From positions 1-64,000 of the forward strand of contig CAMUYR010000015.1 of the NCBI GenBank assembly GCA_947164965.1: 64,000 nucleotides of DNA, given 5' to 3'. Each line of letters begins with the position of its first letter. The first letter of the stretch is position 1. Below the pieces are notes generated by a model. That model was given only the letters and a program-made list of their open reading frames with translations, did not search any database and was not told the origin of the DNA. Positions 7,935 through 64,000 of the stretch are shown in pieces. Made by a program: the position numbers and the translations under genes. The stretch comes from an uncultured Prevotella sp. (lineage in GTDB: Bacteria > Bacteroidota > Bacteroidia > Bacteroidales > Bacteroidaceae).

Positions 7935-7953
7935 TAGAATTTTATTTTGGCTG

Positions 7954-7984
7954 CAAAATTACAAAAAGTTAATAGAAAAGCCAA
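7954..7984 (-). promoter_or_regulatory. Promoter of sufB operon
   Basis: On the minus strand TAATTTTG (7961-7954) is the -7 box and TTG (7984-7982) the -33 element, with 20 nt between. The sufB ATG is at 7934. Confidence 0.7.
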
Positions 7985-8000
7985 ATTAATAGGTGGAAAA

Positions 8001-49152: not shown

Positions 49153-49183
49153 TTGGTCAATTCAAGATTATATTGTAACTTTG
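49153..49183 (+). promoter_or_regulatory. Promoter of the type VI secretion operon
   Basis: TTG at 49153-49155 and TAACTTTG at 49176-49183, 20 nt apart. The expected start near 49190 leaves a ~30-nt leader to the tssH ATG at 49219. Confidence 0.75.
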
Positions 49184-49218
49184 CCCCAAATAAACTCTTA
49201 AAAAATTCAGATAAAACT

Positions 49219-51447
49219 ATGGATATTCGAACAATTGCGAACTCTTTTGCAGAAGAATATTGTAGTGATGCAATTTATCCTGCGCATCTTTTCAAGGCCG
49301 TTCTACATAAAGAAATGGGACTTGTTCACTTTTTAGAGGTAGAATTGAATAAGGACTATTATTATTTGCAAGACTGGGCAGATGTACAGATGCAACTTGC
49401 GCCACGAGCAGTAAAACCCATGCGCGACTTGGATTATTCGGACGAGTCGGTGGCTGTATTGGAAGAAGCAGATAACTATAAGATGAAATTTGATCTCGAA
49501 GAGACAAGTGCTGTTTGTATCTTGGCTTCGTTGGTAACACCTGGTGTTGGCTTTTCTTTCGATCAGTTAAAGACATTACCACTGACTCCACAAGATATCA
49601 GCAATAAGATGGGGGGTGGAGTCAGTGTAGAGGCACCTGATATGGGAGGTGCAGATTTGAAAAATGGCATTCCAGCCCGTGGTGGAAAGGGTTCGTTGGC
49701 TAAGTATTGTATAGACAAGACAGCTGTTGCTCGCTCTGGTAACATTGATAATGTTGTAGGATTTGAGGATGAAATAGCAGTTATTTACGAGATATTGGGC
49801 CGAAAGACTAAGGCCAATTTGTTGATTACCGGTGAAGCTGGTGTTGGTAAGACTTCGCTTATCAATGGTTTTGTGTGCCGCTTGGCTACCGATGATGTCC
49901 CTAATTTCCTGAGTGGTGCATATGCTTACGAGTTAGATATGGCTGCTTTGGGCAGTGATGCACAGTACAAGGGAGAAATAGAAGACCGGTTTAAGAATGT
50001 TATCAGCGAAGTGGAGGCCCAACAGAATGCTGTGCTTATCATAGAGAAAATAGATAAGCTCTTTGATAAGCAAGGTACGCTTTTCGGCTGCTCTACATTA
50101 CTTAAGAATGAGTTGTCAAAGGGCCGTTTACAACTGCTTTGCACATCGAGTATTGATGGTTTCACCAAGAATATTGAAACAGACAAAGAAATGGTCTCTA
50201 ATATTGAGAAGATTTCTGTCGACGAGCCCGATGCTGCACACACATTGGAAATACTGAAAGGTGTTATACCTGCTTATGAGGAATACCATCACCTAACCGT
50301 AGACGAGGAAGTGCTTAACGAGTCCATTCGTTTAGCTAAGCGTTATCTTACCGAAAAGTGTTTGCCGGCATCGGCTATTGATCTGTTGGACCGTACGATG
50401 TCGCATGTTAAGATTGAAAAAGAAGACAAGATGCTTGAGGAGGGGGCCGAAACCATAGCACTTACCAGTGAAGATTTGAGTGCTGCCGTCGCACGTCAAA
50501 CAGGCATACCTCTCGGTAAGGTGCAGACTGGTGAACGTGAGCGGTTGATGGGTGGTGAAGAGACACTGAAGAAGCGTGTCGTAGGACAAGACCACGCTGT
50601 GAAGAAAGTTTTAGATGCTGTTTATGAAGCGCGTTCTGGCCTGAGCAAAAAAGGACAGCCCATGGGCTCATTCTTCTTTCTGGGTCCGACGGGTACTGGT
50701 AAGACAGAACTCTCTAAGGCACTGGCTGAGTTCTTGTTTGGTGACGAGAGTGCATTGTTGCGCTTCGATATGTCGGAATTCAAGGAAGAGCACTCCGTAG
50801 CGTTGCTCTATGGAGCGCCTCCGGGATATGTTGGCTATGAAGAAGGTGGTCTGTTAGTGAATAAAATACGCCAAAACCCTTACTCTGTTGTCCTCTTTGA
50901 TGAAATCGAGAAGGCACACAAGTCCGTTTTCGACCTATTTCTTCAAATATTGGACGAAGGCAAACTGCACGACCGTCTGGGTCGCGTCGGTGATTTCTCG
51001 AACGCACTTATTCTCTTTACTTCTAATATAGGTGCAAAGGATATAGTAGCAAAATTCAATAGTGGCGAAATTCCAGAAAACAACGAGTTAATGGATATTA
51101 TGCAAGGATTCTTCCGCCCAGAGTTTTTGGCGCGACTAACAGAAATAGTACCATTCTCGCCGATTACAGATAAGACAGTTACTGCTATCTTCGACATCCA
51201 TCTGAAAGGACTTTTGAAGTTACTTGCCGAACAAGATATCACGTTGGAGTTGACACCAGAGGCTCGTCAGGCCATTGCATTGCGTGGTTACAATCAACAA
51301 TATGGTGCCCGTCCTGTGTTAGGTGTCATCCGCAAGGAACTGCGACACCCAATTTCGAAGATGATGATTGCTGGTAAGATAAAGTCAGGTGATCATATTA
51401 TCGTTAGTGTTGACAAAGAGGGTAATGCTGTGATAGAAACGGAATAA
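49219..51447 (+). CDS. tssH: TssH/ClpV-type AAA+ ATPase of a type VI secretion system
   Basis: A 742-residue Clp/Hsp100 protein that disassembles contracted sheaths. The N-terminal helical domain spans ~1-145. NBD1 spans ~165-400 with Walker A GEAGVGKTS (205-213), but its Walker B reads VLIIEKIDKLF, so the usual Asp-Glu is Glu-Lys. NBD2 has Walker A GPTGTGKTE (489-497) and intact Walker B VVLFDEIEKA. The protein lacks the long coiled-coil middle domain of ClpB. The ATG at 49219 follows the promoter; the longer frame starts at the -33 element. First gene of the locus. Confidence 0.93.
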   Translation: MDIRTIANSFAEEYCSDAIYPAHLFKAVLHKEMGLVHFLEVELNKDYYYLQDWADVQMQLAPRAVKPMRDLDYSDESVAVLEEADNYKMKFDLEETSAVCILASLVTPGVGFSFDQLKTLPLTPQDISNKMGGGVSVEAPDMGGADLKNGIPARGGKGSLAKYCIDKTAVARSGNIDNVVGFEDEIAVIYEILGRKTKANLLITGEAGVGKTSLINGFVCRLATDDVPNFLSGAYAYELDMAALGSDAQYKGEIEDRFKNVISEVEAQQNAVLIIEKIDKLFDKQGTLFGCSTLLKNELSKGRLQLLCTSSIDGFTKNIETDKEMVSNIEKISVDEPDAAHTLEILKGVIPAYEEYHHLTVDEEVLNESIRLAKRYLTEKCLPASAIDLLDRTMSHVKIEKEDKMLEEGAETIALTSEDLSAAVARQTGIPLGKVQTGERERLMGGEETLKKRVVGQDHAVKKVLDAVYEARSGLSKKGQPMGSFFFLGPTGTGKTELSKALAEFLFGDESALLRFDMSEFKEEHSVALLYGAPPGYVGYEEGGLLVNKIRQNPYSVVLFDEIEKAHKSVFDLFLQILDEGKLHDRLGRVGDFSNALILFTSNIGAKDIVAKFNSGEIPENNELMDIMQGFFRPEFLARLTEIVPFSPITDKTVTAIFDIHLKGLLKLLAEQDITLELTPEARQAIALRGYNQQYGARPVLGVIRKELRHPISKMMIAGKIKSGDHIIVSVDKEGNAVIETE

Positions 51448-51485: not shown

Positions 51486-51950
51486 ATGGCAATGAAAGAA
51501 AATTTCATTTCGATGGCTCCCGATGAAGAGAGCAGTGCAAAAGTTAGTTTGATTGATCAGAACAAAACATTGATGATTGATCAGTATACTTCTGATGTTG
51601 AGGCTGGTGCCCCGGAATTTGTAGAAGACATTCAGAATATCAATGATGCTTTTGAACACTTTAAGCCGAAGGTTGGTGTCACCTTTACTGATGAGGAAGG
51701 TGGTGCTGTAGAAGAGACACTTAAGTTTGGTGAGTTACGTGATTTCGAAGCAGGTGGCGGCAAGGGTCGTCTTGTAGAGAACAGTCAGTTCCTCTCTGGA
51801 GTTAAGATGAAGATAGAAACCAATACTAAGATTCGCAAGAGTATTGAGCAAAACCGCAAATTACGTGATATCTTAAAAGAGGCAGGTAGCCGTGAAGAAC
51901 TGAAGGAAATGCTTCAGTCTATGCTTGACGAGCTTAAGGCCGCAGAGTGA
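51486..51950 (+). CDS. tssB: TssB-like small sheath protein
   Basis: A 154-residue protein matching the Bacteroidota TssB/VipA type. It contains VGVTFTDEEGGAVEETLKFGELRDFEAGG, and the C-terminal helix KIRKSIEQNRKLRDILKEAG leads into an acidic tail. It pairs with TssC to form the contractile sheath. It lies 38 bp after tssH and 35 bp before tssC. Confidence 0.88.
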   Translation: MAMKENFISMAPDEESSAKVSLIDQNKTLMIDQYTSDVEAGAPEFVEDIQNINDAFEHFKPKVGVTFTDEEGGAVEETLKFGELRDFEAGGGKGRLVENSQFLSGVKMKIETNTKIRKSIEQNRKLRDILKEAGSREELKEMLQSMLDELKAAE

Positions 51951-51985: not shown

Positions 51986-53344
51986 ATGGCAGATACAGAA
52001 ATGAAAAAGGCTCAGGTAGCTGAACAGGCAGGTGCAGAGCTACAGGAAAAAGGAAAAGACGTCAGTAAATTATTATCGTCTTTCGGTGGCTTTAATGCCA
52101 TTCGTGGTTTTATGCCCGATGCAGACAATATGAATCCTGCTCGTAAGGCAGCTAAGGATGTTTTTCTGAAAGACAAGCGTTTTAAAGATAAGAGAGAGAA
52201 TCTGACCCGTGAGATTACCCGTTGGTTAGAGTTACTCGACGATAGCAGCATCGAAAGTGCTACCGGCTATGCAGACGCTTGTAAAAAGGACGAGGAAAAA
52301 TATACAGGTGTGCTGAAACAGGGTATCACCGATGCCTTATACGCTACAAAGGATTTGGAACGCTCCTATCGCGAACTTGACTCATTCTTCAAGACCTGTG
52401 GTACGGATAAGGTTAAGAATCTGCGCATTATCAACGTGCTGAAGGAAGACATCGCAGATGCTGATTCTGGCTTCGCTCAGGAAGTAGAGGATATCTTGCG
52501 TAATGGTTTCGATCGCCTGAGTTTGAAGGATGCCTATAGCCTGGTTTGTATTCCAGGTGCCGTGCTTAATGATAAAGTAGACTTGTTGCAATGGGCTAAA
52601 ATGGCCTTTAAATATAAGGTAATGTTGCTTACTGACCATGCTGACGAGTACTCATTCGATGATTTGCAGGCGAATACCGAGGGATATCGAGATAGTGACC
52701 AGGAACTGATGAACGTTGTAATGTGTGCCAACTGGATAGTGGGTCGTGAGGCAGAGAAGATGTCAGCAGACGAAGAGGATGCTGCAGCGTTCTACATTGC
52801 TCCATCAGCAGCTCTTTGTGGAAAGTTATATAATGAGACAGCAAATATGGCACAAGGTGCTGGTGGTAAGAAGTATGGTACACTTGACGGCGTTAAGGGT
52901 GTTAAGAGCGACCTTCTGAAATCAGAGATCGCATCACTGATGGACAATCAGGTTATCCCTATGGTCTACAGCGAGGGACGTGTAATGGCATTCAATAATA
53001 CCACTCTTTATAACGGCGATCTTGATGCAATGAAGGAATATCCTATCGTTCGCGTATTCGACTGGGTTAAGAAGGTGCTTATGAACTTTGTTCACGAAGT
53101 TGCTCTTGAGAATTGGGATCCATACAACAGCCCCAAGAATCTGAAAGCAAAAATTCAGGAGTTCCTGAATCAGTATAAGGGTTATGGCAATCTGTTCCAG
53201 AACTATGAGATTGGCGAACCTCGCATGGATCCTGTGACTAAGCGTGTCACTTGTGACATCACACTAACTCCATTCTATGCAGCAAAGAACTTCGTTATCA
53301 AGGTGGCTGCTGACAAGAAAGATAAGGAAGCAGCTATGGAATAA
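51986..53344 (+). CDS. tssC: TssC-like large sheath protein
   Basis: A 452-residue sheath protein. Its C-terminus (FVHEVALENWDPYNSPKNLK, then IGEPRMDPVTKRVTCDITLTPFYAAKNFVIKV) matches the conserved TssC end. The N-terminal helical part is divergent, as in the Bacteroidota subtype. With TssB it would contract to drive the Hcp tube. A structured 206-bp gap with a new promoter follows, separating it from hcp. Confidence 0.9.
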   Translation: MADTEMKKAQVAEQAGAELQEKGKDVSKLLSSFGGFNAIRGFMPDADNMNPARKAAKDVFLKDKRFKDKRENLTREITRWLELLDDSSIESATGYADACKKDEEKYTGVLKQGITDALYATKDLERSYRELDSFFKTCGTDKVKNLRIINVLKEDIADADSGFAQEVEDILRNGFDRLSLKDAYSLVCIPGAVLNDKVDLLQWAKMAFKYKVMLLTDHADEYSFDDLQANTEGYRDSDQELMNVVMCANWIVGREAEKMSADEEDAAAFYIAPSAALCGKLYNETANMAQGAGGKKYGTLDGVKGVKSDLLKSEIASLMDNQVIPMVYSEGRVMAFNNTTLYNGDLDAMKEYPIVRVFDWVKKVLMNFVHEVALENWDPYNSPKNLKAKIQEFLNQYKGYGNLFQNYEIGEPRMDPVTKRVTCDITLTPFYAAKNFVIKVAADKKDKEAAME

Positions 53345-53467: not shown

Positions 53468-53550
53468 CTCCCAGAAACCTGACAACAGTAACGCACTGGC
53501 AAGGTAAAACGAACATTATTATTACATTTTATAAAGAAAGGAAACAAATT

Positions 53551-53943
53551 ATGGCAAAGACTCCAGTATCGATGACAATCGACGGTTACAAAGAGAGAGA
53601 AGTTCTGATGGTGACTTACGAGTTTAATCAGGCAACAGACGTAGAAGGACAGATGGCAGGCATCCCACGCGGTGGCAAGATTACAGTTCGCGTAAAAGCT
53701 CTGAACGACGGAACACCTGATCTGCTGGCATGGATGACGGAACGCAGTCTTCCGAAGAACGGCGAGATCAAGTTCCTTGAGACCAAGACGAACAAGGAGA
53801 TGAAGAGCATCAAGTTCACCAACGGCTACTGCGTTGACTTCGAAGAGAAGTGGGAGGACAAGATGGGACACTTTGAAGAGATCACTATCACCTGCAAGAA
53901 GATTGAGTTCGGCAATGTGGTTTACGAGAACGACTGGGCATGA
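53551..53943 (+). CDS. tssD: Hcp/TssD-like tube protein 1
   Basis: A 130-residue protein of the Bacteroidota TssD type. VLMVTYEFNQATDVEGQMAG, PRGGKITVRVKALND, LLAWMTERSLPKNGEIKF and a C-terminal EKWEDKMGHFEEITITCKKI are seen. It should form hexameric rings of the inner tube. The ATG at 53551 is used; the upstream part of the open frame covers the promoter. A close paralogue follows after a 66-bp gap made of 7-bp repeats. Confidence 0.9.
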   Translation: MAKTPVSMTIDGYKEREVLMVTYEFNQATDVEGQMAGIPRGGKITVRVKALNDGTPDLLAWMTERSLPKNGEIKFLETKTNKEMKSIKFTNGYCVDFEEKWEDKMGHFEEITITCKKIEFGNVVYENDWA

Positions 53944-54009: not shown

Positions 54010-54408
54010 ATGGCAGAGAATGTAACACCAGTAACCCTGGAAATAAAAGATTTCGCACCACGTGAGGTAATGATGGTTGACTATAAGTTTGAACAGGCTA
54101 CCGATAAGGAGGGACAGATTTCAGGTATTCCCCGTGGTGGCAAGGTGACAATACGCGTGAAGGCCATGAACGATGGCAACAACGAACTGATAGCATGGAT
54201 GCTCGATCCTACGAGCCCTCGTGACTTCTCAGTGAAGTTTGTGAACACGGTAGACGGCGCAGCCATGAAGGAACTGAAGGGTACCAACTGCTACTGCGTG
54301 AACTACGTGGAGAAGTGGGAAGACGGACAGCAGCACTTCGAGGAAATTGAGATCGTGTGCCAGAAACTCGAGAATGGTCCTGTGTTATACGACAATCCTT
54401 GGAAGTAA
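54010..54408 (+). CDS. tssD: Hcp/TssD-like tube protein 2
   Basis: A 132-residue paralogue of the preceding gene, sharing VMMVDYKFEQATDKEGQISG, IPRGGKVTIRVKAMNDG, LIAWMLDPTSPRDFSVKF and VEKWEDGQQHFEEIEIVCQKL. The loop between residues ~65 and 95 differs, so the two may form mixed tubes, or carry different cargo inside the ring. Two hairpins with short T-tracts follow, probably ending an abundant hcp mRNA. Confidence 0.9.
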   Translation: MAENVTPVTLEIKDFAPREVMMVDYKFEQATDKEGQISGIPRGGKVTIRVKAMNDGNNELIAWMLDPTSPRDFSVKFVNTVDGAAMKELKGTNCYCVNYVEKWEDGQQHFEEIEIVCQKLENGPVLYDNPWK

Positions 54409-54532: not shown

Positions 54533-54925
54533 ATGGGACAGTTTGTTTGCCAGGGCGCTATGTTACAGTGCACATTTGGAATGACTCCGTCGACTTTCTC
54601 AGTTCTTGACCCCATGCGCCCTAAATGTATGAATATGGCTATCGGTAACATCATGGACAATAAGCCCATGGTTAACATTGCCCCTTTTGGTATGTGCCAG
54701 TCTATGGCGAACCCTACAGTAGCATCAGCTACTGCAGCAGCGATGGGTGTGCTGACACCCATGCCTTGTATGCCAGTAATCGCAGCTCCGTGGACTCCCG
54801 GAGCTCAAGTAAAGATGTCAAACTTTCCTGCTCTTTTGGACAATGCGAAATGTATGTGCAATTGGGGCGGACAGATATCAGTCATTATGCCAGGAGCAAT
54901 AGCTCCGATGACATCAGGAAAATAG
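54533..54925 (+). CDS. DUF4280 PAAR-like spike protein
   Basis: A 130-residue Cys-, Met- and Pro-rich protein with the DUF4280 pattern: FVCQGAMLQCTFGMTPSTF, NIMDNKPMVNIAPFGMC, and TPGAQVKMSNFPALLDNAKC then CMCNWGGQISVIMPG. DUF4280 proteins are regarded as PAAR-like tips that sit on the VgrG spike and may bind metal through their cysteines. No VgrG or fused toxin is in view. It lies 7 bp before the PEGA gene. Confidence 0.88.
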   Translation: MGQFVCQGAMLQCTFGMTPSTFSVLDPMRPKCMNMAIGNIMDNKPMVNIAPFGMCQSMANPTVASATAAAMGVLTPMPCMPVIAAPWTPGAQVKMSNFPALLDNAKCMCNWGGQISVIMPGAIAPMTSGK

Positions 54926-54932
54926 TAAGATT

Positions 54933-56252
54933 ATGAGAGGGTGGCTGATAGTATTGCTGATGGTCTGTATGGTGTCTTCTTTGGAAGCCCAGCAGATGGA
55001 AGTCAATGGATTCAAGCGACTAAGGCGCCCTATTTGGAATCGTTCAAAGGTAGCTGTCGATAAGCAACGAGCCATCATCGATCTTTATACCGACGAGAAA
55101 GGTTTTACTTTTACTGCTAATGGCAAGGAAGCTGCTGAAGCTACGGAGGGTAAAGGCGTTATCACTGTAAAGGTTCCCAATAAGACACGCCATATCACGG
55201 TAAAACATCCACAGTATGGCACACTCACATGGCGTGTTCCTGTGAAACATCTGAAGCGCAAGAAGCACTATCGTGCCACATTGTTAGCTCAGAATCCAAT
55301 TAAAGAATATAAGCCAGAGCAACAATGGGTAGTAATGGACATAGAACCGAAAAGTGCCATCGTAAGGATGGACTCGACGGTAACGCTGATTAATGAAGGA
55401 CAATATGCGGAGATGCAGTCAATGGGATGGCATACCTATCGCGTTGAGGCTCCATTTTATGAGGCACTGACGGACTCATTCTTGTTGACGGATACTGCGA
55501 AGGTAAATATCAAGGTTAAGCTACAACCCGCTTACTCGTATGTGGTGGTGAATACACCTTGGGAGAATGGTGAGATTTATATCGATGGGCTATTCATATC
55601 AAAGGGAGAAGGTACTAGTCGCCGATTGCAGGAAGGGCAGCATCGTCTTTCAGTATTCATGTACGAAACGTGCATTTATGATCAGTCGTTCATCATTGGA
55701 CGGGCAGAGAAACAGGTCATTACGTTAACGAAGAATGATTTCGAACCGCAACCGCATAAAAAAGAAAAAATGTTTTCTTCTCTCAGTACACAGTCGCCAA
55801 TAGTAGCTCCTTGGGTTGCGTCAGTGCAAGCGCCAGTGACATTAAAGGCACCAGATTGCGATATTGAGATATGGGTTGACCGTGAATATGTAGGAACAGG
55901 GCAATGGAGTGGTATGTTAGCTCAGGGATATCACATTGTCAACACGAGGAAGGATAGTATAGAGTCGAAGAGCACTGAGTTGTGGATTGTAGATAGCACC
56001 CCCCAGCAGTTAGATCTTGCCGTTCCACAGATAAGCATGGCAATGCTTAACATACACAGCAATGTGACAGGTGCTGAGATCTTTATTAATGATGTGCTTG
56101 TTGGAAGTACACCGAGTATTATCCCTCAACTGCCAGCAGACAGGCTATATACTGTAAGCCTGCGGAAAGAGGGATATAAGAGTACTAAGAAATCCGTCAG
56201 ACCTCGTGGCAATGAGTTGACGGACTTAAATATAAAAATGAAACAAAAATAA
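54933..56252 (+). CDS. Exported PEGA-domain protein
   Basis: A 439-residue protein with a signal peptide (GWLIVLLMVCMVSSLEA). Beta-rich repeats follow, the clearest a C-terminal PEGA domain (LNIHSNVTGAEIFINDVLVG, YTVSLRKEGYKSTKKSVRPRG), with an earlier related unit at ~205-265 (VVVNTPWENGEIYIDGLFI). PEGA domains are surface or envelope modules. Placed between the spike and E1-like genes, it could belong to the trans-envelope part of this system. The E1 gene follows 3 bp after the stop. Confidence 0.82.
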   Translation: MRGWLIVLLMVCMVSSLEAQQMEVNGFKRLRRPIWNRSKVAVDKQRAIIDLYTDEKGFTFTANGKEAAEATEGKGVITVKVPNKTRHITVKHPQYGTLTWRVPVKHLKRKKHYRATLLAQNPIKEYKPEQQWVVMDIEPKSAIVRMDSTVTLINEGQYAEMQSMGWHTYRVEAPFYEALTDSFLLTDTAKVNIKVKLQPAYSYVVVNTPWENGEIYIDGLFISKGEGTSRRLQEGQHRLSVFMYETCIYDQSFIIGRAEKQVITLTKNDFEPQPHKKEKMFSSLSTQSPIVAPWVASVQAPVTLKAPDCDIEIWVDREYVGTGQWSGMLAQGYHIVNTRKDSIESKSTELWIVDSTPQQLDLAVPQISMAMLNIHSNVTGAEIFINDVLVGSTPSIIPQLPADRLYTVSLRKEGYKSTKKSVRPRGNELTDLNIKMKQK

Positions 56253-56255
56253 GAT

Positions 56256-57428
56256 ATGTGCAGTAGGATGAGTAAAGAAACGTCAGATATTCTTACCCAG
56301 TTATCCTGGTTTCGTAGGGATAAAGTCTCTGCTGCCTGTGTAATGGTGATAGGATGTGGTGCCTTAGGTAATGAGGTGTTAAAGAATTTGGCACAGTTTG
56401 GCTTACAACATCTTGTTATTGTTGATTTTGACTCTGTAGAGCCATCGAACCTGACACGGTCGGTGTTTTTTACTATTGACGATGCTATTAACAAACGGCG
56501 GAAGGTCGATGCGATAGCAGAACGACTGAAAGCCATGAATCCTGCAATGGAGTTGAAAACCATCTGTGGCGATGTGGCCTACGATGTGGGATTGGGCTTA
56601 GTTCGTAGTATGGACGTGGTAATAGGTTGTGTAGACAGCCGTTGGGCCCGTTATAGTATAAATAGACTCTGTATGCGGGCAGGAGTGCCGTGGGTAGACG
56701 GTGGCATTGACGGATTAGAAGGTACTGTCCGGGTGTTTCGCCCTGGGGAAAATTGTTATGCCTGCAACTTAGGACCAGAGGGTTTGAAGGATCTTAAAAA
56801 ACGTATGCCTTGTGCTGGCATCATACGTCGTAATGAGGCATCAGGACGTGCTGCCACCACACCAGTCATTGCCTCTATTATTGGTGCTATTGAAGTACAG
56901 GAAGCATTGAAGTTAATACATCGTGAGCAATTGGAAGCAGGTGAATTGACTTCATTGTGTGGTAAGATGTTTTGTTATGAGGGGCAGCACTTGTCGACCA
57001 AAACAGTAGATTTTAAAGCCTATGACGACGACTGCCCTGTTCATGACTTGTGGCAACCAATCGTACAGACAGAAATAACTGTGGAGAGTACTGTGGCCGA
57101 TGTGTTGCAACAGCTACACAAATTGTTGGATGACGATCACCTACAGATATGTCTCAACGATTGTTTCGTTGATTGGGTGGAGTCTCGTGCAGATGGACAA
57201 CAGATACAGGTCATGAAACCTGGAAGGGACGTGGCCGAACAAATAGAACGACATCCGGGATTGAAAGGTGCACTGCAAGGAGCACTTTATCAACATGAAT
57301 ACAGGGTGTTAGACGATAGCTTCCCATATCAGGAACTGACGTTAGCTCAAGTGGGAATACCCGTCTGGGATATATTGCAAATAATCACTGCACGCGGGAA
57401 TGTGTATGTTGAAATGAAGAAAGAATGA
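56256..57428 (+). CDS. E1-like ubiquitin-activating enzyme (ThiF/MoeB/HesA fold) inside a T6SS locus
   Basis: 390 residues. The Rossmann ATP site has GCGALG (33-38), IVDFDSVEPSNLTRS (55-69) with the Asp/Asn/Arg adenylation residues, and Asp127. A Cys pair (167/170, CYAC) plus Cys260/His263 (CPVH) look like the structural zinc site, with His replacing one Cys. Cys186 in RMPCAGIIRR is placed like the catalytic Cys that takes the activated protein as thioester. The C-terminal ~120 residues are an extra domain ending GIPVWDILQII. No rhodanese or thiamine/molybdopterin genes are near. It overlaps the next baseplate gene by 4 nt, so it is made with the secretion machine. Confidence 0.9.
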   Translation: MCSRMSKETSDILTQLSWFRRDKVSAACVMVIGCGALGNEVLKNLAQFGLQHLVIVDFDSVEPSNLTRSVFFTIDDAINKRRKVDAIAERLKAMNPAMELKTICGDVAYDVGLGLVRSMDVVIGCVDSRWARYSINRLCMRAGVPWVDGGIDGLEGTVRVFRPGENCYACNLGPEGLKDLKKRMPCAGIIRRNEASGRAATTPVIASIIGAIEVQEALKLIHREQLEAGELTSLCGKMFCYEGQHLSTKTVDFKAYDDDCPVHDLWQPIVQTEITVESTVADVLQQLHKLLDDDHLQICLNDCFVDWVESRADGQQIQVMKPGRDVAEQIERHPGLKGALQGALYQHEYRVLDDSFPYQELTLAQVGIPVWDILQIITARGNVYVEMKKE

Positions 57429-58216
57429 AAAAGGTAAGCCAAAACCTCTCTGAGGTCAGTGCAGAGATGCTGATTAATTACCTCTTTCCTGAGGTGAAGG
57501 AGCGATGGAATGTACATAATATGGGTACTTTCTACCGCAACTACAACCGTGACGTGATAAACTATGACGAGGAGAGTGCCGAGATAGAGGTGGCACGCGA
57601 TGGCTTTATCAAGTTGCTGCCGCAAGGCCTTCTTTTTAGCACACAAGGTAAGGGTCGTGGTGAACTTAGGAAAGCGATTAGCGGACAGAATGCCAAGATG
57701 CGGCTGTTACGTGACATGTTCCAGCCTTTTGACACCTTTGCCTTTCGTCGCCGTTTGGCTATCGAACGGCAGGTGTCACAATTGCTTGATACCAAGCTGC
57801 AATACCTGCTGTCGACTTATTTCCATTATGATTTGGCGGCAGAGCAGAACTCGTACGTACGTGAGGTGGCAGTATTGTTACCATTTGTCAGTAGAATGCG
57901 CGGTGACTTCCTGTTTGTTCGTAACTTGTTAGTGTCGCTCTTTGACTGTGAAGTACTATGCAACCAGGGGCGTTATAGCCATACAGATAACACGCGTAGC
58001 TGGATATCGCTGATGCAGTACGAGTTACTTATTGACGACCTGACTAGTGAGCAGTATAATGCACTGCGAACAGACATAAAACCATTAGCACAGTTTATTA
58101 CAGAGTGGTTTATTCCTGCTGATGTATACTGTGAGATATCCATCAAATGGCACCAGCATCAGCCGCTGACGGGTGAAAACTTGACGCTGGACTATAATTC
58201 AGAACTGAATAAATAA
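57425..58216 (+). CDS. tssG: Probable TssG-like baseplate protein
   Basis: A 263-residue soluble protein whose start overlaps the E1 stop (ATGA). MLINYLFPEVKERWNVHNMG near the start, RDGFIKLLPQGLLFS, a FRRRLAIERQ helix, and an end that reads ENLTLDYNSEL (compare the LGWNTWL end of classical TssG) fit a divergent TssG. Position next to TssK, TssE and TssF supports this. I do not see motifs strong enough to exclude another baseplate role. Confidence 0.6.
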   Translation: MKKVSQNLSEVSAEMLINYLFPEVKERWNVHNMGTFYRNYNRDVINYDEESAEIEVARDGFIKLLPQGLLFSTQGKGRGELRKAISGQNAKMRLLRDMFQPFDTFAFRRRLAIERQVSQLLDTKLQYLLSTYFHYDLAAEQNSYVREVAVLLPFVSRMRGDFLFVRNLLVSLFDCEVLCNQGRYSHTDNTRSWISLMQYELLIDDLTSEQYNALRTDIKPLAQFITEWFIPADVYCEISIKWHQHQPLTGENLTLDYNSELNK

Positions 58217-58223
58217 CAACGAT

Positions 58224-59363
58224 ATGAATATCAATGCGAGAATCGACTGGAAACCGGGCATGGAACTTACCGCCCAGACTTTCCTTGACATGGACGCCAA
58301 TCTTGACTTCCGGCAACAGATGGCAATACGTGCTGCACTGGGCGACCATTGTATCGGCCTGTTACCAGACATGCCTTTCAGTTGTTCAGGTACGTTCTAT
58401 ACCAATAAGTTTGAGATAGAACGTCTGCAATGTGCTGCGTTGTTGCCGTCTGGAAGAATAGTACAGGCAGACGAGGCCGTCAGCATTACGATTCCGATGC
58501 TCTATGGCGATGCCTACTATCTTACAATAGGGCTGGGAGAAGGAATGAGAACCTTTGAAAAAGAAGGAGTACGCTATGTACAGCCCAAAGTTGCTTTCTC
58601 TATACAGTCATTGCAGGAAGTTCAGCAGAATGACGTGTTGCCTATCGTTCGCTTTACGGTCGACAAGGGCGTATTTGCAGTTGATAAAGACTTTGTTCCA
58701 CCTTGTCTGCTCTTGTCGGGTAACACGATTTTTAATGATCTTCATCGGCATTATGTCGAGTTGTTGATGTCATTAGCCCAACATGCAAACCAGAAAGAGG
58801 GTGATGGCAAACGGGCGATGCAGCGCTACCTATTTGTTCTGAAATCATTCGATATGTCAGGGCGTGTGGCAGACTTCGTCAGTATAACTCAAGAGATAGC
58901 CCAAGCCATAGACTACTTTATCATGACACCTTATACAGATCATCCTGTAGAGATTCCTCAACCTGTGCAGGTCGATGTTATGCTTTGGCTGCGCTGGTTT
59001 GAGAATTATTTGTCTGGAGCGGTTTCTGTGCTTGATGGGGTAGAGCTTGAGGACGACTCAATAGACTATGAGACTTTGCTTGCTCAGGCCAAGAAGGAAC
59101 TTTATGAACAGCTGAATCCAGAACTTTATGCCAAGCTTTTGGAACAGATTAAGACAGAGCTTCGCGATGAGTTGAGCGACAAGTTGACGGCTGCACTCAC
59201 TGATTATATGGAAAATACGATGAAGCCAGATCTTGGACGTATACTCAGTGCAGAATTGTATGAGAAATTATATGAGAAACTATATACAGAACTCTTCGAA
59301 AACCTGTTCAATGCTCTATATGTTCCTGAACCGGAAGAGAAAGAATTTATTCCTATTATATAA
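58224..59363 (+). CDS. tssK: TssK-like baseplate protein
   Basis: A 379-residue protein. The N-terminus IDWKPGMELTAQTFLDMDANLDFRQQMA corresponds to the TssK start (W-x-x-G-M-x-L-x-x-Q-x-F). It is followed by a beta shell (FYTNKFEIERLQCAALLPSG) and a helical middle (AQAIDYFIMTPYTDHPVEI). The last ~95 residues are an unusual amphipathic repeat (ELYEQLNPELYAKLLEQI, SAELYEKLYEKLYTELFENLF). TssK links baseplate to membrane complex, so this tail may be an adaptor. Confidence 0.82.
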   Translation: MNINARIDWKPGMELTAQTFLDMDANLDFRQQMAIRAALGDHCIGLLPDMPFSCSGTFYTNKFEIERLQCAALLPSGRIVQADEAVSITIPMLYGDAYYLTIGLGEGMRTFEKEGVRYVQPKVAFSIQSLQEVQQNDVLPIVRFTVDKGVFAVDKDFVPPCLLLSGNTIFNDLHRHYVELLMSLAQHANQKEGDGKRAMQRYLFVLKSFDMSGRVADFVSITQEIAQAIDYFIMTPYTDHPVEIPQPVQVDVMLWLRWFENYLSGAVSVLDGVELEDDSIDYETLLAQAKKELYEQLNPELYAKLLEQIKTELRDELSDKLTAALTDYMENTMKPDLGRILSAELYEKLYEKLYTELFENLFNALYVPEPEEKEFIPII

Positions 59364-59374
59364 TATGTAGCCAC

Positions 59375-59824
59375 ATGAACGGACTGATTGCACCTATAGA
59401 CATTACCAAGAACGGATTGCGACGAGGCAATAGCATTAAGGAGTCTATTGACACTTTCTTAGAAGTGCTTCTCAACTCGGTATGTGGTGAGACTGCCATA
59501 GACCCGCAGTTTGGTTTCGTGTTCAACAATATGCGCTTTGAGATTTTCAACGAACGCGATGGTGTTATCCTAAACTCGCAGGAGGAAGACGACAAACAGA
59601 ATGACTTGTATTCAAAAAAAATCTCAGGTAATTCGCGTAACCTCAATACCTTCGCTATTGATTTGAAGGCGGTTGTCGAGAAGTATGAACCACGATTGGA
59701 GGACATTACCACCAGTATGTCTTATGTACGTGGTGAGCGTAGGGTCTACATTACTGTTGTTGGTGTGATTACTGAAACCAAGGAGAAGTACCAGTATGAT
59801 ACTATTCTCAAAATCTGGAACTAA
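59375..59824 (+). CDS. tssE: TssE/GPW-gp25-like baseplate protein
   Basis: A 149-residue gp25-fold protein. An N-terminal helical stretch KESIDTFLEVLLNSVCGETAIDPQFG fits the family's glycine turn. A C-terminal strand pair YEPRLEDITTSMSYVRGERR, then VYITVVGVI, carries the E-P-R-L motif of TssE/gp25. It starts the sheath on the baseplate. TssF follows 6 bp downstream. Confidence 0.88.
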   Translation: MNGLIAPIDITKNGLRRGNSIKESIDTFLEVLLNSVCGETAIDPQFGFVFNNMRFEIFNERDGVILNSQEEDDKQNDLYSKKISGNSRNLNTFAIDLKAVVEKYEPRLEDITTSMSYVRGERRVYITVVGVITETKEKYQYDTILKIWN

Positions 59825-59830
59825 CAGACT

Positions 59831-61561
59831 ATGAAACAAAAGATATACGAGACACGGCAGAGAGCAGAAGAATTGCTGGATGAGGCTATCAGCATATGGC
59901 GACAAAGTGACCATAGTGACCAATTGGAAGGTTTGGAGCATGATCCAATCTTTGCTTTGCTGATGACAGCATTAGCTTATCAGGCCAACGAGTCGGATAG
60001 TGATATAGAGCGCCTGCGTCAAGATGTGCTTGACGAGTATGCTCGTTTGATGACTCCTTATGAGTCTGGTCGTGCCATTCCTGCTACAGCAGTGGTGGAG
60101 ACAGCATTACAAAAGGGTATTCCTGAAATGATACTCAGTGAGAACAAAACCTTTACGTTAAAAGACACCAATTACAAGTTTATGCCGCTGCTGCGGTCGA
60201 GGGTCATTAACGCCACTGTAGATTCCATTATCCGTTTAGATGGTCGTCGATGGAAATTGACATTGCAGTTTCAGGAACCAGTCAACAACTTGTCTGGTAT
60301 AACCTTTGCCATTAAAGACAGCCGTTTCCATGATGTCAAAGTATCTATTGATGGTAAACTGTTACCATTAGTGAAGCCTTGGCACTATGCGAATATGCCC
60401 TTGCAGCATTGTTTCTCTGTCGACGCGCTATTATATAATAATGCTCAGATGTACCAGGCCTCTATGACAGGCCTTGACCTGTACACTCGACAGAACATAG
60501 CCCTCTTCTATATAAAGGAGCACAACCCGAAGCAGTTTTTTAAGGTGGATATGGAGAGCATAGAGTTGGTATTCGATTTCACAGGCATTCCCGATGACTT
60601 TGTTTTCGACAAGAATGTCTTCTCCCTGAATACCGTATTGTTGGTCAACGCTCAATTGAATGTTGCCACCATTTCCTCGACAGAGCCTATTGTCCGAGTG
60701 GTTGGATATAGCGAGTCTGAAGCCGCCAAGACTAGTGGCCAACAATTGATGCATCTGATACCTCCTTCTAAAGAACAACTCTTTGGCAAGACACCAATTG
60801 AAGTGCGGCGTGTTGCTGCCGATCGTTTCAATCGAGCAACGCTAGTCAGGTTAGTGAACAGTCTTATGACAAAGTTTAATAGTGATTATTATGCTTTCAT
60901 GAACCTGAAGGATGTTAACATCCAGACATTGGTCAGCCAGTTGCAGGAGGCGTTTTCAAAACTTATTGCCACCACTCGAGATGAGAAACAGCAGAACACC
61001 TCTGGTGTCTATCTGATGCTCAACAGGAAGGTGTTGCTATCTAAGACACCAGTCAGTCTTGACGTCGGATATCTCACAACTGACGGCGAGGCTGTCAATG
61101 AAGATCTGCTTCCCGGTAGCGTCTTTACACCACCTGTCGGATTTGAATCATCTTCTATTCGCCAGATAGCAGTCCCTACGACTGGCTTTGATGAAGTTAA
61201 CGACGCTGAGAGCATCAAGAGTACTATGCGATATTATATGGTTACCAACGACCGTATTGTAACTCCTGCTGACATGAAGATATTCTGCTATACAGAATTG
61301 ATGAACCGTTACTCTATTATTCCGGACATGGTACGTAGCATCAGTGTCAAGCACTTGTTACACAATGACCGTACAGAGACGGGTTATGCCATTCATGTGG
61401 ATATTAACCTGCAGGAAAATCTTTTCATCAAGCGTAGCTTTGCCGACAAGATAAACCAGGCCGAGACGCTCCTTCAGAAGATGATGGAAGTCAGAAGCAC
61501 AGGTATCTATCCAATACTGGTAACTATACAAATTACGGAAGAATCAACAGAAAAAGCATAA
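59831..61561 (+). CDS. tssF: TssF-like baseplate protein
   Basis: A 576-residue protein. The start has a helical ARLMTPYE segment after DPIFALLMTALAYQANESDSDIERL, the TssF hallmark, followed by IPATAVVE. The middle part is beta-rich (FTGIPDDFVFDKNVFSLNTV). The C-terminal half shows TPADMKIFCYTELMNRYS, as in gp6-type wedge proteins. It forms the baseplate wedge with TssG and TssE. Length is close to the family's ~600. Confidence 0.88.
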   Translation: MKQKIYETRQRAEELLDEAISIWRQSDHSDQLEGLEHDPIFALLMTALAYQANESDSDIERLRQDVLDEYARLMTPYESGRAIPATAVVETALQKGIPEMILSENKTFTLKDTNYKFMPLLRSRVINATVDSIIRLDGRRWKLTLQFQEPVNNLSGITFAIKDSRFHDVKVSIDGKLLPLVKPWHYANMPLQHCFSVDALLYNNAQMYQASMTGLDLYTRQNIALFYIKEHNPKQFFKVDMESIELVFDFTGIPDDFVFDKNVFSLNTVLLVNAQLNVATISSTEPIVRVVGYSESEAAKTSGQQLMHLIPPSKEQLFGKTPIEVRRVAADRFNRATLVRLVNSLMTKFNSDYYAFMNLKDVNIQTLVSQLQEAFSKLIATTRDEKQQNTSGVYLMLNRKVLLSKTPVSLDVGYLTTDGEAVNEDLLPGSVFTPPVGFESSSIRQIAVPTTGFDEVNDAESIKSTMRYYMVTNDRIVTPADMKIFCYTELMNRYSIIPDMVRSISVKHLLHNDRTETGYAIHVDINLQENLFIKRSFADKINQAETLLQKMMEVRSTGIYPILVTIQITEESTEKA

Positions 61562-61570
61562 CAATACAAT

Positions 61571-61894
61571 ATGGAAGATAAAGATTTCTTGTTAGACATC
61601 GTCTATAAAAACAAAACAGTCAAGTTCAGGGTGGTCAACCCGGAGTCTCCCTTAGAGATTTTGATGACCAACTTGCGCCATGCCATCGGTAATGATGGTA
61701 AACTCATCTTCGACTTCCCTTCGATAGACCAGACGGGAGCACCACTCGACTACTTCTTTGGCAAGGAAGATCCTGAGGTGCATGAAATCAGAGTGTTACG
61801 TCCGCGTATTGGTCGTTCAGACCAGACACTGCTTGACTATCATGTTCAAAACGGCGATACACTCTACTTAGTGGCTGACCCATTTCCAGGATGA
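61571..61894 (+). CDS. Ubiquitin-like beta-grasp protein with free C-terminal Gly
   Basis: 107 residues. The order is strand FLLDIVY, strand TVKFRVV, helix LEILMTNLRHAIG, strand KLIFDF, and the closing LLDYHVQNGDTLYLVADPFPG (like the L-x-D-Y-x-I-x-x-G-x-x-L-x-L end of ubiquitins), which gives a beta-grasp. The protein ends exactly at Pro-Phe-Pro-Gly, so no protease is needed to expose the Gly. There is no transmembrane segment or signal. Its TGA overlaps the ATG of the E2-like gene. It may instead be a T6SS scaffold of YukD type, but the E1 and E2 in the same operon argue for conjugation. Confidence 0.82.
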   Translation: MEDKDFLLDIVYKNKTVKFRVVNPESPLEILMTNLRHAIGNDGKLIFDFPSIDQTGAPLDYFFGKEDPEVHEIRVLRPRIGRSDQTLLDYHVQNGDTLYLVADPFPG

Positions 61895-62448
61895 ACGGAC
61901 GGAGCAAGAGACTGCAGAATGAGTGGCAGACGTTAGAGCACGGGCTTGATGGTCGTAAGGATATCAGTTGCCGTGTGTTGGCTACCAACGAAGAGGGGTT
62001 GCCAAACAGCTATTGTGTGGACTATCATATACATAGCATCTGTGGTGTTACCAATGTAGAACAGCTTGGTATCGAAGGTGTTGTGAACGAACCACTTTTT
62101 GCTGACCACTTCCAAATGCAAATTTCGTTACCTGTGAACTATCCACAGGTGGATGCTGCTCCAGTCTTCAATTTCCTGACTTGCGATGAGCAGGGCAACG
62201 ACATACCGCACCCGTGGCATCCCAATATCCGTTACTTCGGTGCTTTTGCAGGCAGGGTATGCATCAATATGGCAGATACCTATTCCAGTCTGTTGTGGGC
62301 CATACAGCGTATCGGTGCTTATTTGCGCTATGAGGTCTATCATGCTACGATAGAGCCCCCCTATCCAGAAGACTTGCAGGTAGCCGCTTGGGTACGTAAT
62401 CAAGGAGAGCCAAACGCATGGATATATTTAAACAATAAGAATAAATAA
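61891..62448 (+). CDS. E2-like ubiquitin-conjugating enzyme
   Basis: 185 residues. An N-terminal helix RLQNEWQTLE leads to the strands. The proline turn SLPVNYPQVDAAPVFNF corresponds to the E2 'LP-x-x-YP...P-x-x-F' block. Then comes HPWHPNIRYFG with a His-Pro-Asn triad (110-112) and GRVCINM with the candidate catalytic Cys124, 12 residues after Asn112. A following WAIQRIGAYLRYE helix and the PYPEDLQVAAWV end fit the E2 C-terminal helices. Translation is coupled to the beta-grasp gene. It is larger than minimal E2s because of an insertion around 36-65. Loss of activity cannot be excluded, but all key residues are present. Confidence 0.82.
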   Translation: MNGRSKRLQNEWQTLEHGLDGRKDISCRVLATNEEGLPNSYCVDYHIHSICGVTNVEQLGIEGVVNEPLFADHFQMQISLPVNYPQVDAAPVFNFLTCDEQGNDIPHPWHPNIRYFGAFAGRVCINMADTYSSLLWAIQRIGAYLRYEVYHATIEPPYPEDLQVAAWVRNQGEPNAWIYLNNKNK

Positions 62449-62454
62449 CGAGAT

Positions 62455-63618
62455 ATGAACATAAGATATAGAGCATTGTTGCTGTTGACATGTTGCCTGT
62501 CGGTCATCATGCTATACGGCAAAATGGTGAAGCCTATCACGGTGGCACAGGGTCAACCGTATACTGACCACATTGCGTTGGCAAATGACGCTACAGATAA
62601 AGATATCATGGTGAAGTTCCAGTTTAATGAGGATGCTAATACGCTGACGGTCAGTGTCATCTCCTATCGTACCCTTTTCGTCTTTTGGGACGATACTCGT
62701 TATAAGAATGTTGTCAAGCGTCGCTGGATACATACCGACCGATTACCCTATGTTGCCACCTGCGAGGATGGTCAGCGTTTTCGCCTGACAAAGGAACTTT
62801 GCAATTCTCTTCCCAAGCCCAATAAGAAATATATCTTTAAGAAATGGATGACTTATGAGGGATTGCAGCCACAGGAGAAGGAAATCATGATGGTCAATAG
62901 TTATCTCGAGCAAGTTTTTGACATACAGAACAAGCGCAGCAATGTGGCAATTCATCTGCACGATGTTATGTTGCTCGATTTGGTCAAGCAAAAAGGTATC
63001 AAATCGGAATACCAAATCAGTTTTGGAAAGGATCTTGATACAGAATATCAGATTACTATTCAGCGCAATCCGTGTTTCGGACTTGAGAAGGAGACAGAAA
63101 CGGCTCAGAAGGCTTTTGAAGCTGTTACGAAGAGCTATAAGTTGTTGAAAAAGAACTATGCTAAGGGTACCGTCAGTTCGCAAGAGAGCAAGAAAGCTTT
63201 CGACGAGCTCAAGGCAACGCTGACAGCTCAGTATCAGCATAACAATGACAGCAGTGCATGCCCAGTTATTCAGGACTATATCAATCAATATAACCTGAAA
63301 GTCGATTCATTGACAAGCATGAAGGTACAAGTCGAAACACCTGCAGAGGTGGCAGAGAAAGTCATGGGTGCTAAAGGCAATGAGGCCAATGAAGCCAATG
63401 GAAAGATTGTGTTGGCTAATGCTCGTCAGATTGATAGCAAGGTGTCTCGCTGGCTTACCAGTCGTAATGCTTCTGAACGTGCCGATCTTGTCAGGGAATG
63501 CCAAAACATCATCCGAGATACTAAACAGATCATTATTACGCTTCCGCAGGCAAAATGGTCTGAAACGATAAAAATATTCCGTCAGGCAGAACAGTACTTT
63601 AACAAGACATGCAGATAA
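62455..63618 (+). CDS. Exported protein of the T6SS locus, function unknown
   Basis: A 387-residue protein with a signal peptide (ALLLLTCCLSVIMLYG). Residues ~40-125 are beta-rich with a WDDTRYKNVVKRRW stretch, and ~200-385 are mostly helical and charged (KAFEAVTKSYKLLKKNYAKG, VSSQESKKAFDELKATL). I recognise no motif. By place it could be one of the Bacteroidota-specific envelope components (TssN-TssR group), but which one is not clear. It starts 6 bp after the E2 gene. Confidence 0.75.
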   Translation: MNIRYRALLLLTCCLSVIMLYGKMVKPITVAQGQPYTDHIALANDATDKDIMVKFQFNEDANTLTVSVISYRTLFVFWDDTRYKNVVKRRWIHTDRLPYVATCEDGQRFRLTKELCNSLPKPNKKYIFKKWMTYEGLQPQEKEIMMVNSYLEQVFDIQNKRSNVAIHLHDVMLLDLVKQKGIKSEYQISFGKDLDTEYQITIQRNPCFGLEKETETAQKAFEAVTKSYKLLKKNYAKGTVSSQESKKAFDELKATLTAQYQHNNDSSACPVIQDYINQYNLKVDSLTSMKVQVETPAEVAEKVMGAKGNEANEANGKIVLANARQIDSKVSRWLTSRNASERADLVRECQNIIRDTKQIIITLPQAKWSETIKIFRQAEQYFNKTCR

Positions 63619-64000
63619 AGCGACATATATTATATTGGCTGTTATGTCTGCTACCGTTAGCAACATTAGCGCAAACTTCGGATCCTAATGCCGAAGTGAC
63701 GCCTGAGGCGTTGCATCAGGAGATAGGGGCGCGTATGATGCATTATGCCGATGAACTGAGCGAGTTGGCCATTGTGGGCAACATTCAAGTGACGTTCTAC
63801 GAATCGTCTCCGTTGTCTGTTGGATATGTCAATGTACTGAGGAATAAGGTGAATCTGTTGGACGAACGATATAATTCCATTAATGTCCGATGGACCACCT
63901 TCATACAGGCTATGCAGATGGATATTGCCGATGACGATGAACTGATGGCTATTATGAGTAATGTGGAACAGTTGAAGCAGGGAGTTGCTGATACGATAGC
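63609..64000 (+). CDS. Exported protein, cut by the window end
   Basis: The ATG at 63609 overlaps the previous stop by 10 nt. The product begins with a signal peptide (RHILYWLLCLLPLATLAQ) and continues for 130 residues with YADELSELAIVGNIQVTFYE and DDELMAIMSNVEQLKQGVAD. It looks like another periplasmic component of the locus. The rest, and any VgrG, membrane complex or effector genes, lie beyond the window. Confidence 0.7.
   Translation, partial: MQIKRHILYWLLCLLPLATLAQTSDPNAEVTPEALHQEIGARMMHYADELSELAIVGNIQVTFYESSPLSVGYVNVLRNKVNLLDERYNSINVRWTTFIQAMQMDIADDDELMAIMSNVEQLKQGVADTI

Follow-up and report, generated by a model that had tools for sequence, protein, structure and literature searches.

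Introduction

Ubiquitin-like pathways of bacteria are known chiefly from antiphage defence, from the tagging of proteins for proteolysis and from sulfur transfer, and Burroughs and co-workers are said to have described, in 2011, prokaryotic operons that code for a RING protein together with an activating enzyme (E1), a conjugating enzyme (E2) and a ubiquitin-like protein (Ubl). Here we consider a locus in which genes for an E1, a Ubl and an E2 are placed among the baseplate genes of a type VI secretion system (T6SS). It lies in the first 64,000 nucleotides of contig CAMUYR010000015.1 (assembly GCA_947164965.1), from an uncultured Prevotella sp., and this whole stretch will be called the window.

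Among secretion systems, the closest described relatives are those of Bacteroidota subtype T6SSiii. According to PMC10781749, tssN and tssP are nearly ubiquitous in this subtype, tssN is found systematically between tssK and tssG, and TssK is docked, where the system is of the TssN type, by a fixed hub in the membrane that has a ubiquitin-like domain. In the window, in contrast, nothing lies between tssK and tssG.

The comparisons of sequence and predicted structure presented below suggest that E1, E2 and Ubl, together with a predicted RING protein encoded downstream, probably form a conjugation cascade that is dedicated to the T6SS and tags some part of the machine where it docks at the inner membrane.

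Results

Recurrence of the set at T6SS loci

A first-pass annotation of the window had proposed that an E1-like, a beta-grasp and an E2-like gene are interleaved with tssG, tssK, tssE and tssF, E1 overlapping tssG and the beta-grasp gene overlapping E2; the three genes are genuine and in place, and both overlaps are as it described them (Table 1). When genome contigs were scanned for the E2, 23 loci were found with titles naming Prevotella, Prevotellaceae, Bacteroidaceae or Bacteroidales (seven of these titles name a ruminant host), and in them the gene order E1-G-K-E-F-Ubl-E2-X387-Y, where single letters stand for tss genes and X387 and Y for two proteins encoded after E2, is kept wherever the contig extends that far. 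With the loci from genome searches added, 36 loci (35 distinct) were tabulated, and in each the set adjoins T6SS genes. Ubl, E2 and a protein of class X387 or X34a are present in 36/36, E1 and TssG in 34/36, TssK in 33/36 and a JAB protein in 7/36; the two loci without E1 are on contigs that begin too late to include it. The trio is consequently no single-locus oddity, being T6SS-linked in 35 further distinct loci. Within a sample of the host family the E2 occurs in 14 of 399 genomes, each time within a T6SS locus, and a scan of the whole phylum found it in 3 of 395, the present genome included, from which it follows that the set is rare outside the more densely sampled families.

The loci belong to two clades. 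The usual order in clade A, the type of the window, is PAAR-PEGA-E1-G-K-E-F-Ubl-E2-X387-Y-RING, and that in clade B is ClpV-B-C-Hcp-VgrG-PAAR-Ubl-E2-X34a-X34b-JAB-RING-E1-G-K, with E and F next after K in both loci that were traced beyond it. E1 adjoins TssG in both. Between the clades, E1 and E2 are about 40% identical, whereas the identity of TssG and TssK is only 20–24%; homology of the clade-A proteins X387 and Y to X34a and X34b of clade B was looked for, and none was found. A membrane protein of the JAB/JAMM type is encoded in 7/7 clade-B loci. Its single-protein Pfam score is weak (0.0039), and the JAMM residues Glu, His, His, Ser and Asp are kept in all 12 aligned JAB proteins, that is, seven of clade B and five of a second family treated below, the split or weak JABs of L088, L090 and L094 being excluded (L and G are our handles for loci and genomes).

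Some further features of clade B may be recorded here. Long proteins (632–760 amino acids, aa) that match Hcp, possibly extended Hcp carriers, are encoded at L034:2822-5101 and L032:14082-15977, the former with repeated stretches. After the T6SS of L070 come genes for a Ser/Thr kinase and a PP2C phosphatase (L070:4252-5772, 7558-8424), and the RING protein of that T6SS ends in an FHA-like domain.

Conservation of E1 and E2

Residues were counted in the non-redundant set of T6SS-type loci including the window, with L055 left out as a duplicate contig of L005. In E1 the catalytic Cys is Cys186, and a presumed zinc site of the form CxxC/CxxH consists of C167, C170, C260 and H263; these five residues, as well as G33, D59, K83 and D127, are invariant in 34/34 sequences, and R68 is kept in 33 of the 34. 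In E2 the His-Pro-Asn (HPN) motif occupies positions 110–112 and the catalytic Cys is Cys124, and H110, P111, N112 and C124 are invariant in 36/36. An E2 profile matches E2-25K in the PDB (3.7e-5) in an alignment that pairs both the HPN motif and the Cys, so that the E2 assignment of the first-pass annotation is upheld, at the level of sequence, by profile match and active-site invariance together. By the same kind of evidence E1 can be assigned as a ThiF-fold enzyme with nucleotide-site residues and a catalytic Cys, and E2 as an E2-family protein with HPN and a catalytic Cys.

In NCBIfam, E1 comes closest to adenyl_thiF (2.3e-37), with 128 bits where the cut-off is 275. Together with the single terminal Gly of the Ubl, this match is what one would expect if the E1-Ubl pair were a sulfur carrier of the ThiF-ThiS kind, serving cofactor or thiol chemistry. 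Such a role is, however, scarcely credible, as it has no place for an E2 with HPN and Cys, for a RING-like membrane protein or for the JAB of clade B.

The ubiquitin-like protein

The Ubl has one beta-grasp domain and, as encoded, a single C-terminal Gly, which is the last residue in 36/36 sequences. An AlphaFold2 (AF2) model reached a predicted local distance difference test (pLDDT) score of 83, and its Foldseek neighbours include 6fnn_C, the ubiquitin of Caldiarchaeum, and 8tyz_B, the Ubl of a bacterial E1-E2-Ubl complex and presumably a Bil protein. The protein is accordingly called, with moderate confidence in the modelled fold, a beta-grasp modifier with a free C-terminal Gly. Matches to polyubiquitin in the PDB at 1e-19 are sums over repeats, single natural ubiquitins match at E of about 0.4, and these matches were not used as proof. 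The Phe-Pro-Gly remnant on lysine, for which the first-pass annotation recommended mass spectrometry, would not form with trypsin, because the last Lys or Arg is situated 25 residues before the C-terminal end.

Could E1, E2 and Ubl be mere scaffold, non-catalytic leftovers of the machine? Beta-grasp domains do scaffold secretion machines, TssN and EccD being instances given in part of PMC10781749, and the Ubl model also resembles EccD. A scaffold needs, however, neither a catalytic Cys nor HPN, nucleotide-site residues or a free Gly, and the invariance of these in T6SS-type loci argues against the scaffold role, which is very improbable.

A candidate E3 downstream of the window

About 0.5 kilobases (kb) beyond the window end starts a gene for a membrane protein with the layout vWA, transmembrane (TM) segment, predicted RING (about residues 420–464), six more long helices and FHA. 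A RING-like pattern of Cys ligands is present in 29/29 members, and on this pattern the vWA-RING-FHA protein is a candidate for the E3 of the cascade. It is labelled in 34/36 loci, and in the remaining two it shares one reading frame of 1066–1103 aa with Y (L004:5666-8974, L018:11710-14907), a natural fusion which suggests that Y and the RING protein work together. Structure matches at a root-mean-square deviation above 30 were disregarded. As a TssN homologue the Ubl was rejected (hhalign probability 0.6%).

Absence of the standard membrane complex

TssN is found over the cut-off in 15 of the 399 genomes of the host family. One of the 14 cascade genomes, G614, has TssN over the cut-off together with TssO and TssR, on a different contig from the cascade. 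The other 13 have no TssN over the cut-off, and TssO and TssR were found in none of them by searches that were positive in 5/5 TssN-type controls; the present genome has no TssN, TssO or TssR. Conversely, the neighbourhoods of tssN (up to 20 kb each) gave no E1, Ubl, E2 or RING hit in 10/10 examined, out of 16 tssN places. The exclusion between the set and TssN is one between loci. Matches to the N-terminal half of TssN in frames of 662–698 aa occur in G636 (C28:27569-28054) and G759 (C8:681355-681837), away from the T6SS locus; these fall under the cut-off and were not counted as TssN.

It is on the position and topology of the RING protein, and on the absence of TssN, that the idea of a TssN replacement is founded, and since the two share no sequence homology the RING protein would be at most a functional substitute.

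The association with the T6SS bears also on the suggestion that an antiphage conjugation system, similar to Bil or to the cyclic oligonucleotide-based antiphage signalling system (CBASS), was inserted in the locus and acts on phage rather than on the T6SS. Bacterial sets of E1, E2, Ubl and JAB are known from defence, and Bil, as part of PMC12948488 describes it, tags the central tail fibre of phage, the T6SS itself being tail-like. A mere insertion fits poorly, however, with a set that stands next to tss genes or among them in every one of the 35 distinct loci, in two arrangements, and that coincides with the absence of the standard membrane complex. Furthermore, PADLOC (E<=0.01) placed only E1-E2 models on E1 and gave nothing for Ubl, E2, RING or JAB, and among IMG/VR viral contigs the scan used gave 8 pattern matches with no relative among them. 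An antiphage system is for these reasons quite unlikely.

A second family with extracellular contractile injection systems

A related E2 occurs in 10 of 120 genomes of a second family, which belongs to the same class, mostly with E1, Ubl, JAB and a vWA protein around it. Four of these (G214, G308, G886, G899) have an extracellular contractile injection system (eCIS), with sheath, tube, spike and gp25, on the cassette contig within about 50 kb; G871 has a partial eCIS at the end of that contig, and in G902 the cassette is followed by a weak TssK and clear TssB, TssC, Hcp, VgrG and ClpV, which is a T6SS. CIS_tube is present in 7/10 cassette genomes against 24/110 of the others (p 0.003). To illustrate with G214 (L063:1105-8087 and L052:5679-15225), its eCIS genes share a contig with the E1-Ubl-E2-JAB-vWA cassette and are identified by Pfam as sheath, gp19 tube, CIS_tube, baseplate injector, gp25 and eCIS_core (4.9e-17), with PAAR and eCIS_core genes between eCIS and cassette.

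The catalytic Cys of E1 is kept in 9/9 of these proteins, and HPN and Cys of E2 in 9 of the 10 genomes, with G820 counted across a cut. Of eight Ubls read, three end in Gly and five have 2–4 residues beyond it, for example ...GGK or ...GKKMK (L053:9353-9634, L083:19260-19538, L085:12115-12396, L087:19453-19740, L091:646-936). JAB-like genes are near all five. The residues after Gly imply that JAB could here also mature the Ubl; in T6SS-type loci, where the Ubl ends at Gly as encoded, the part of JAB would be deconjugation (clade B). Also found repeatedly next to the cassette, eCIS or T6SS of the second family are members of one gene family without an assigned function (Table 1).

The neighbourhoods of the Ubl bear on the main rival, according to which the Ubl is attached to cargo and not to the docking apparatus. 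It would then mark Hcp, a PAAR-like tip protein or an effector for loading or for secretion. Ubl and E2 come directly after the VgrG/PAAR genes in most clade-B loci, and several second-family cassettes are near PAAR and eCIS_core genes of cargo type, as the cargo hypothesis would have it. In clade A, on the other hand, they stand between TssF and X387, E1 abuts TssG in both clades, and a RING-like finger in a multi-pass vWA membrane protein suits docking better than the loading of cargo. We regard cargo labelling as unlikely.

Genes of the window

The features are collected in Table 1. The PEGA protein, X387 and Y go with the clade-A machine, perhaps as components in the membrane or periplasm. 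A GH3-family protein, all three GH3 domains of which score over the cut-off, is encoded on the minus strand at 47489-48997, upstream of the T6SS.

Table 1. Features of the T6SS locus in the window, with the downstream gene and the recurring second-family genes
Feature	Position	Strand	Basis or remark
ClpV/TssH AAA+ ATPase	49153..51447	+	Pfam AAA_2, ClpB_D2-small
TssB sheath subunit	51486..51950	+	Position ahead of TssC, as also in clade-B homologues; no Pfam match
TssC sheath subunit	51986..53344	+	PF17541 TssC 3.1e-100
Hcp (TssD) copy 1	53548..53943	+	PF17642 5.1e-30
Hcp (TssD) copy 2	54010..54408	+	PF17642 3.2e-22
PAAR-like tip protein (DUF4280)	54533..54925	+	PF14107 5.2e-30; T6SS_IglG 2.4e-8, weak, under cut-off
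PEGA-domain protein	54933..56252	+	PF08308 2e-20; found in 23/36 loci
E1-like Ubl-activating enzyme, ThiF domain, conserved C-terminal extension	56256..57428	+	Pfam ThiF 2.9e-48
TssG baseplate	57425..58216	+	Position; homologues adjoin E1 wherever both are present; no Pfam name
TssK baseplate	58224..59363	+	T6SS_VasE 2e-5, over cut-off; TIGR03353 1.2e-7, under cut-off
TssE baseplate (gp25)	59375..59824	+	GPW_gp25 1.4e-6, over cut-off
TssF baseplate	59831..61561	+	Position; homologues in 29/36 loci; no Pfam match
Ubl, predicted ubiquitin-like beta-grasp protein, 107 aa	61571..61894	+	Last residue Gly; AF2; beta-grasp structural neighbours
E2-like conjugating enzyme	61891..62448	+	Pfam UQ_con 1.8e-4; profile match E2-25K 3.7e-5
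X387, after E2 in clade A	62455..63618	+	Hydrophobic N-terminus (by eye); no significant Pfam match
Y (part; gene continues to contig position 64496)	63609..64000	+	Hydrophobic N-terminus, one hydrophobic segment near C-terminus (by eye)
vWA-TM-RING-multiTM-FHA membrane protein, candidate E3	contig 64514-66910 (L035:4514-6910)		Next gene after Y, outside window
Members of recurring second-family genes	L063:13412-14848, L083:16429-17562, L085:14048-15418, L091:8209-9690, L101:13808-15352, L104:16258-17727		

Discussion

Proposed mechanism

In the mechanism that we propose, E1 would adenylate the C-terminal Gly of the Ubl and then carry it as a thioester on Cys186, from where it would be handed to Cys124 of E2. 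The RING of the membrane protein would recruit the E2~Ubl to the face of the inner membrane where the baseplate docks, and there the Ubl would be joined to a lysine of a baseplate or tail protein, or of the membrane assembly itself. The conjugated Ubl could then be a conditional docking contact, a licence for docking or firing, a proposal drawn from the TssN-type hub described in part of PMC10781749, where a ubiquitin-like domain contacts TssK. Binding of phospho-Thr by FHA could gate the conjugation, and the FHA domain together with the kinase and PP2C genes beside one clade-B T6SS suggests such a phospho-input. JAB would reverse the conjugation in clade B, and in clade A the modification may be irreversible or be undone by a different protease. 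Of the first-pass proposal that a conjugation step may tag a baseplate, tube or effector protein, as a checkpoint, cargo label or capping device, one part, conjugation of a Ubl close to the baseplate, has good sequence support, which the predicted RING protein strengthens; the identity of the tagged protein and the purpose of the tag are conjectural.

It is possible, though we would not count on it, that the loci make up a T6SS subtype of their own, with a vWA-RING-FHA ligase hub in place of the TssN-centred complex, that this hub, together with E1, E2 and Ubl, marks baseplate or dock covalently to license assembly or firing, and that this is one branch of a wider Ubl pathway for contractile injection systems (T6SS and eCIS), JAB-reversible in some lineages.

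Evidence against the proposal

Several observations weigh against a T6SS-dedicated cascade and its wider version. The sequence match of the Ubl to ubiquitin is weak (Pfam 0.059), 3/5 of its AF2 models have a pLDDT of 46–50, and Foldseek gave no match for the model at E<=1e-3. RING Pfam models match the membrane protein, yet under their curated cut-offs in the member shown, the spacing of the last RING ligand pair exceeds the canonical Cys-x2-Cys, and as a TssN homologue this protein was rejected (hhalign probability 2%). The membrane-complex searches covered TssN, TssO and TssR; sub-cut-off TssN matches occur on other contigs of G636 (3.3e-5) and G759 (9.2e-4); and at the level of genomes the exclusion between the set and TssN does not reach significance (p 0.42), because both are rare. 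That the window holds no JAB, as the first-pass annotation remarked, extends to the whole genome, profile search having found none in 7/7 clade-A genomes, the present one included; the same profile found JAB in the 5/5 clade-B genomes given to it (of 7).

In the second family, the cassette is absent from 24/31 eCIS genomes, the eCIS (CIS_tube) of G793 is on a different contig from the cassette, and the cassette contigs of G820 and G873 (about 24 kb) and of G814 (3.5 kb) show no injection system. Most of the presumed zinc site is missing from 2/9 E1s, and the E2 of G814 has Gln for the catalytic Cys. In 5 of 9 vWA proteins examined (L052:12883-15225, L053, L084, L085, L089) the first zinc Cys pair is lost and reads DPIT, DPVT or DPVY, which we take to be reminiscent of a U-box, and a RING pattern search found no such region in the other 4/9. 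An E2-like protein with HPN but Gln for the catalytic Cys is encoded in a 520-aa frame at L096:546-2105, on a 3.5-kb contig.

If the proposal is true, a cascade of E1, E2 and RING, reversed by JAB in some lineages, can regulate a bacterial macromolecular machine. It offers an answer to what anchors those Bacteroidota T6SSs in which one does not find the known membrane complex, and with four genes it is a directly testable system for a control step of eukaryotic style.

Comparison with known systems

With T6SSiii of Bacteroidota the locus shares the genes for sheath, tube, ClpV and baseplate, and Pfam TssC and TssD match; unlike T6SSiii, it has E1, Ubl, E2 and the vWA-RING-FHA protein in a genome lacking TssN, TssO and TssR. 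Bil (BilABCD), in the parts of PMC11354881 and PMC12948488 that concern its composition, resembles the present set in having Ubl, E2 and E1, and also JAB when clade B is considered. BilA has, however, two ubiquitin-like domains, whereas the Ubl is a single domain of 107 aa, and Bil includes the JAB deconjugase BilC, which has no counterpart found in clade A; the RING-like membrane protein is an addition here, and the locus is that of an injection machine. The archaeal cascade of Caldiarchaeum, as set out in a portion of PMC5654768, likewise has E1, E2, a small RING and ubiquitin, its ubiquitin being the Foldseek neighbour 6fnn_C, but here the RING is within a membrane protein, the locus is a T6SS and the Ubl ends in one Gly. 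ThiF-type sets of the ParB-related, ThiF-related cassette (PRTRC) have an E1 of the ThiF family as well, although the present E1 scores 37.4 bits with their model TIGR03736, far under its cut-off of 144.75.

Phage lambda and T1 have non-contractile tails. A beta-grasp protein with a conserved C-terminal Gly is encoded among their tail-assembly genes, too, namely TAPI with the JAB-containing TAPK, for which the relevant passage of PMC1779556 describes no E1 or E2, in contrast to the E1-E2 set here. Among the matches listed in open-licence literature no report links a T6SS or eCIS to an E1/E2 cascade, although one may have been published elsewhere. Each of the enzyme types is known in bacteria, and what is likely to be new, judged by gene content, is a T6SS lineage with a ubiquitin-like cascade on board.

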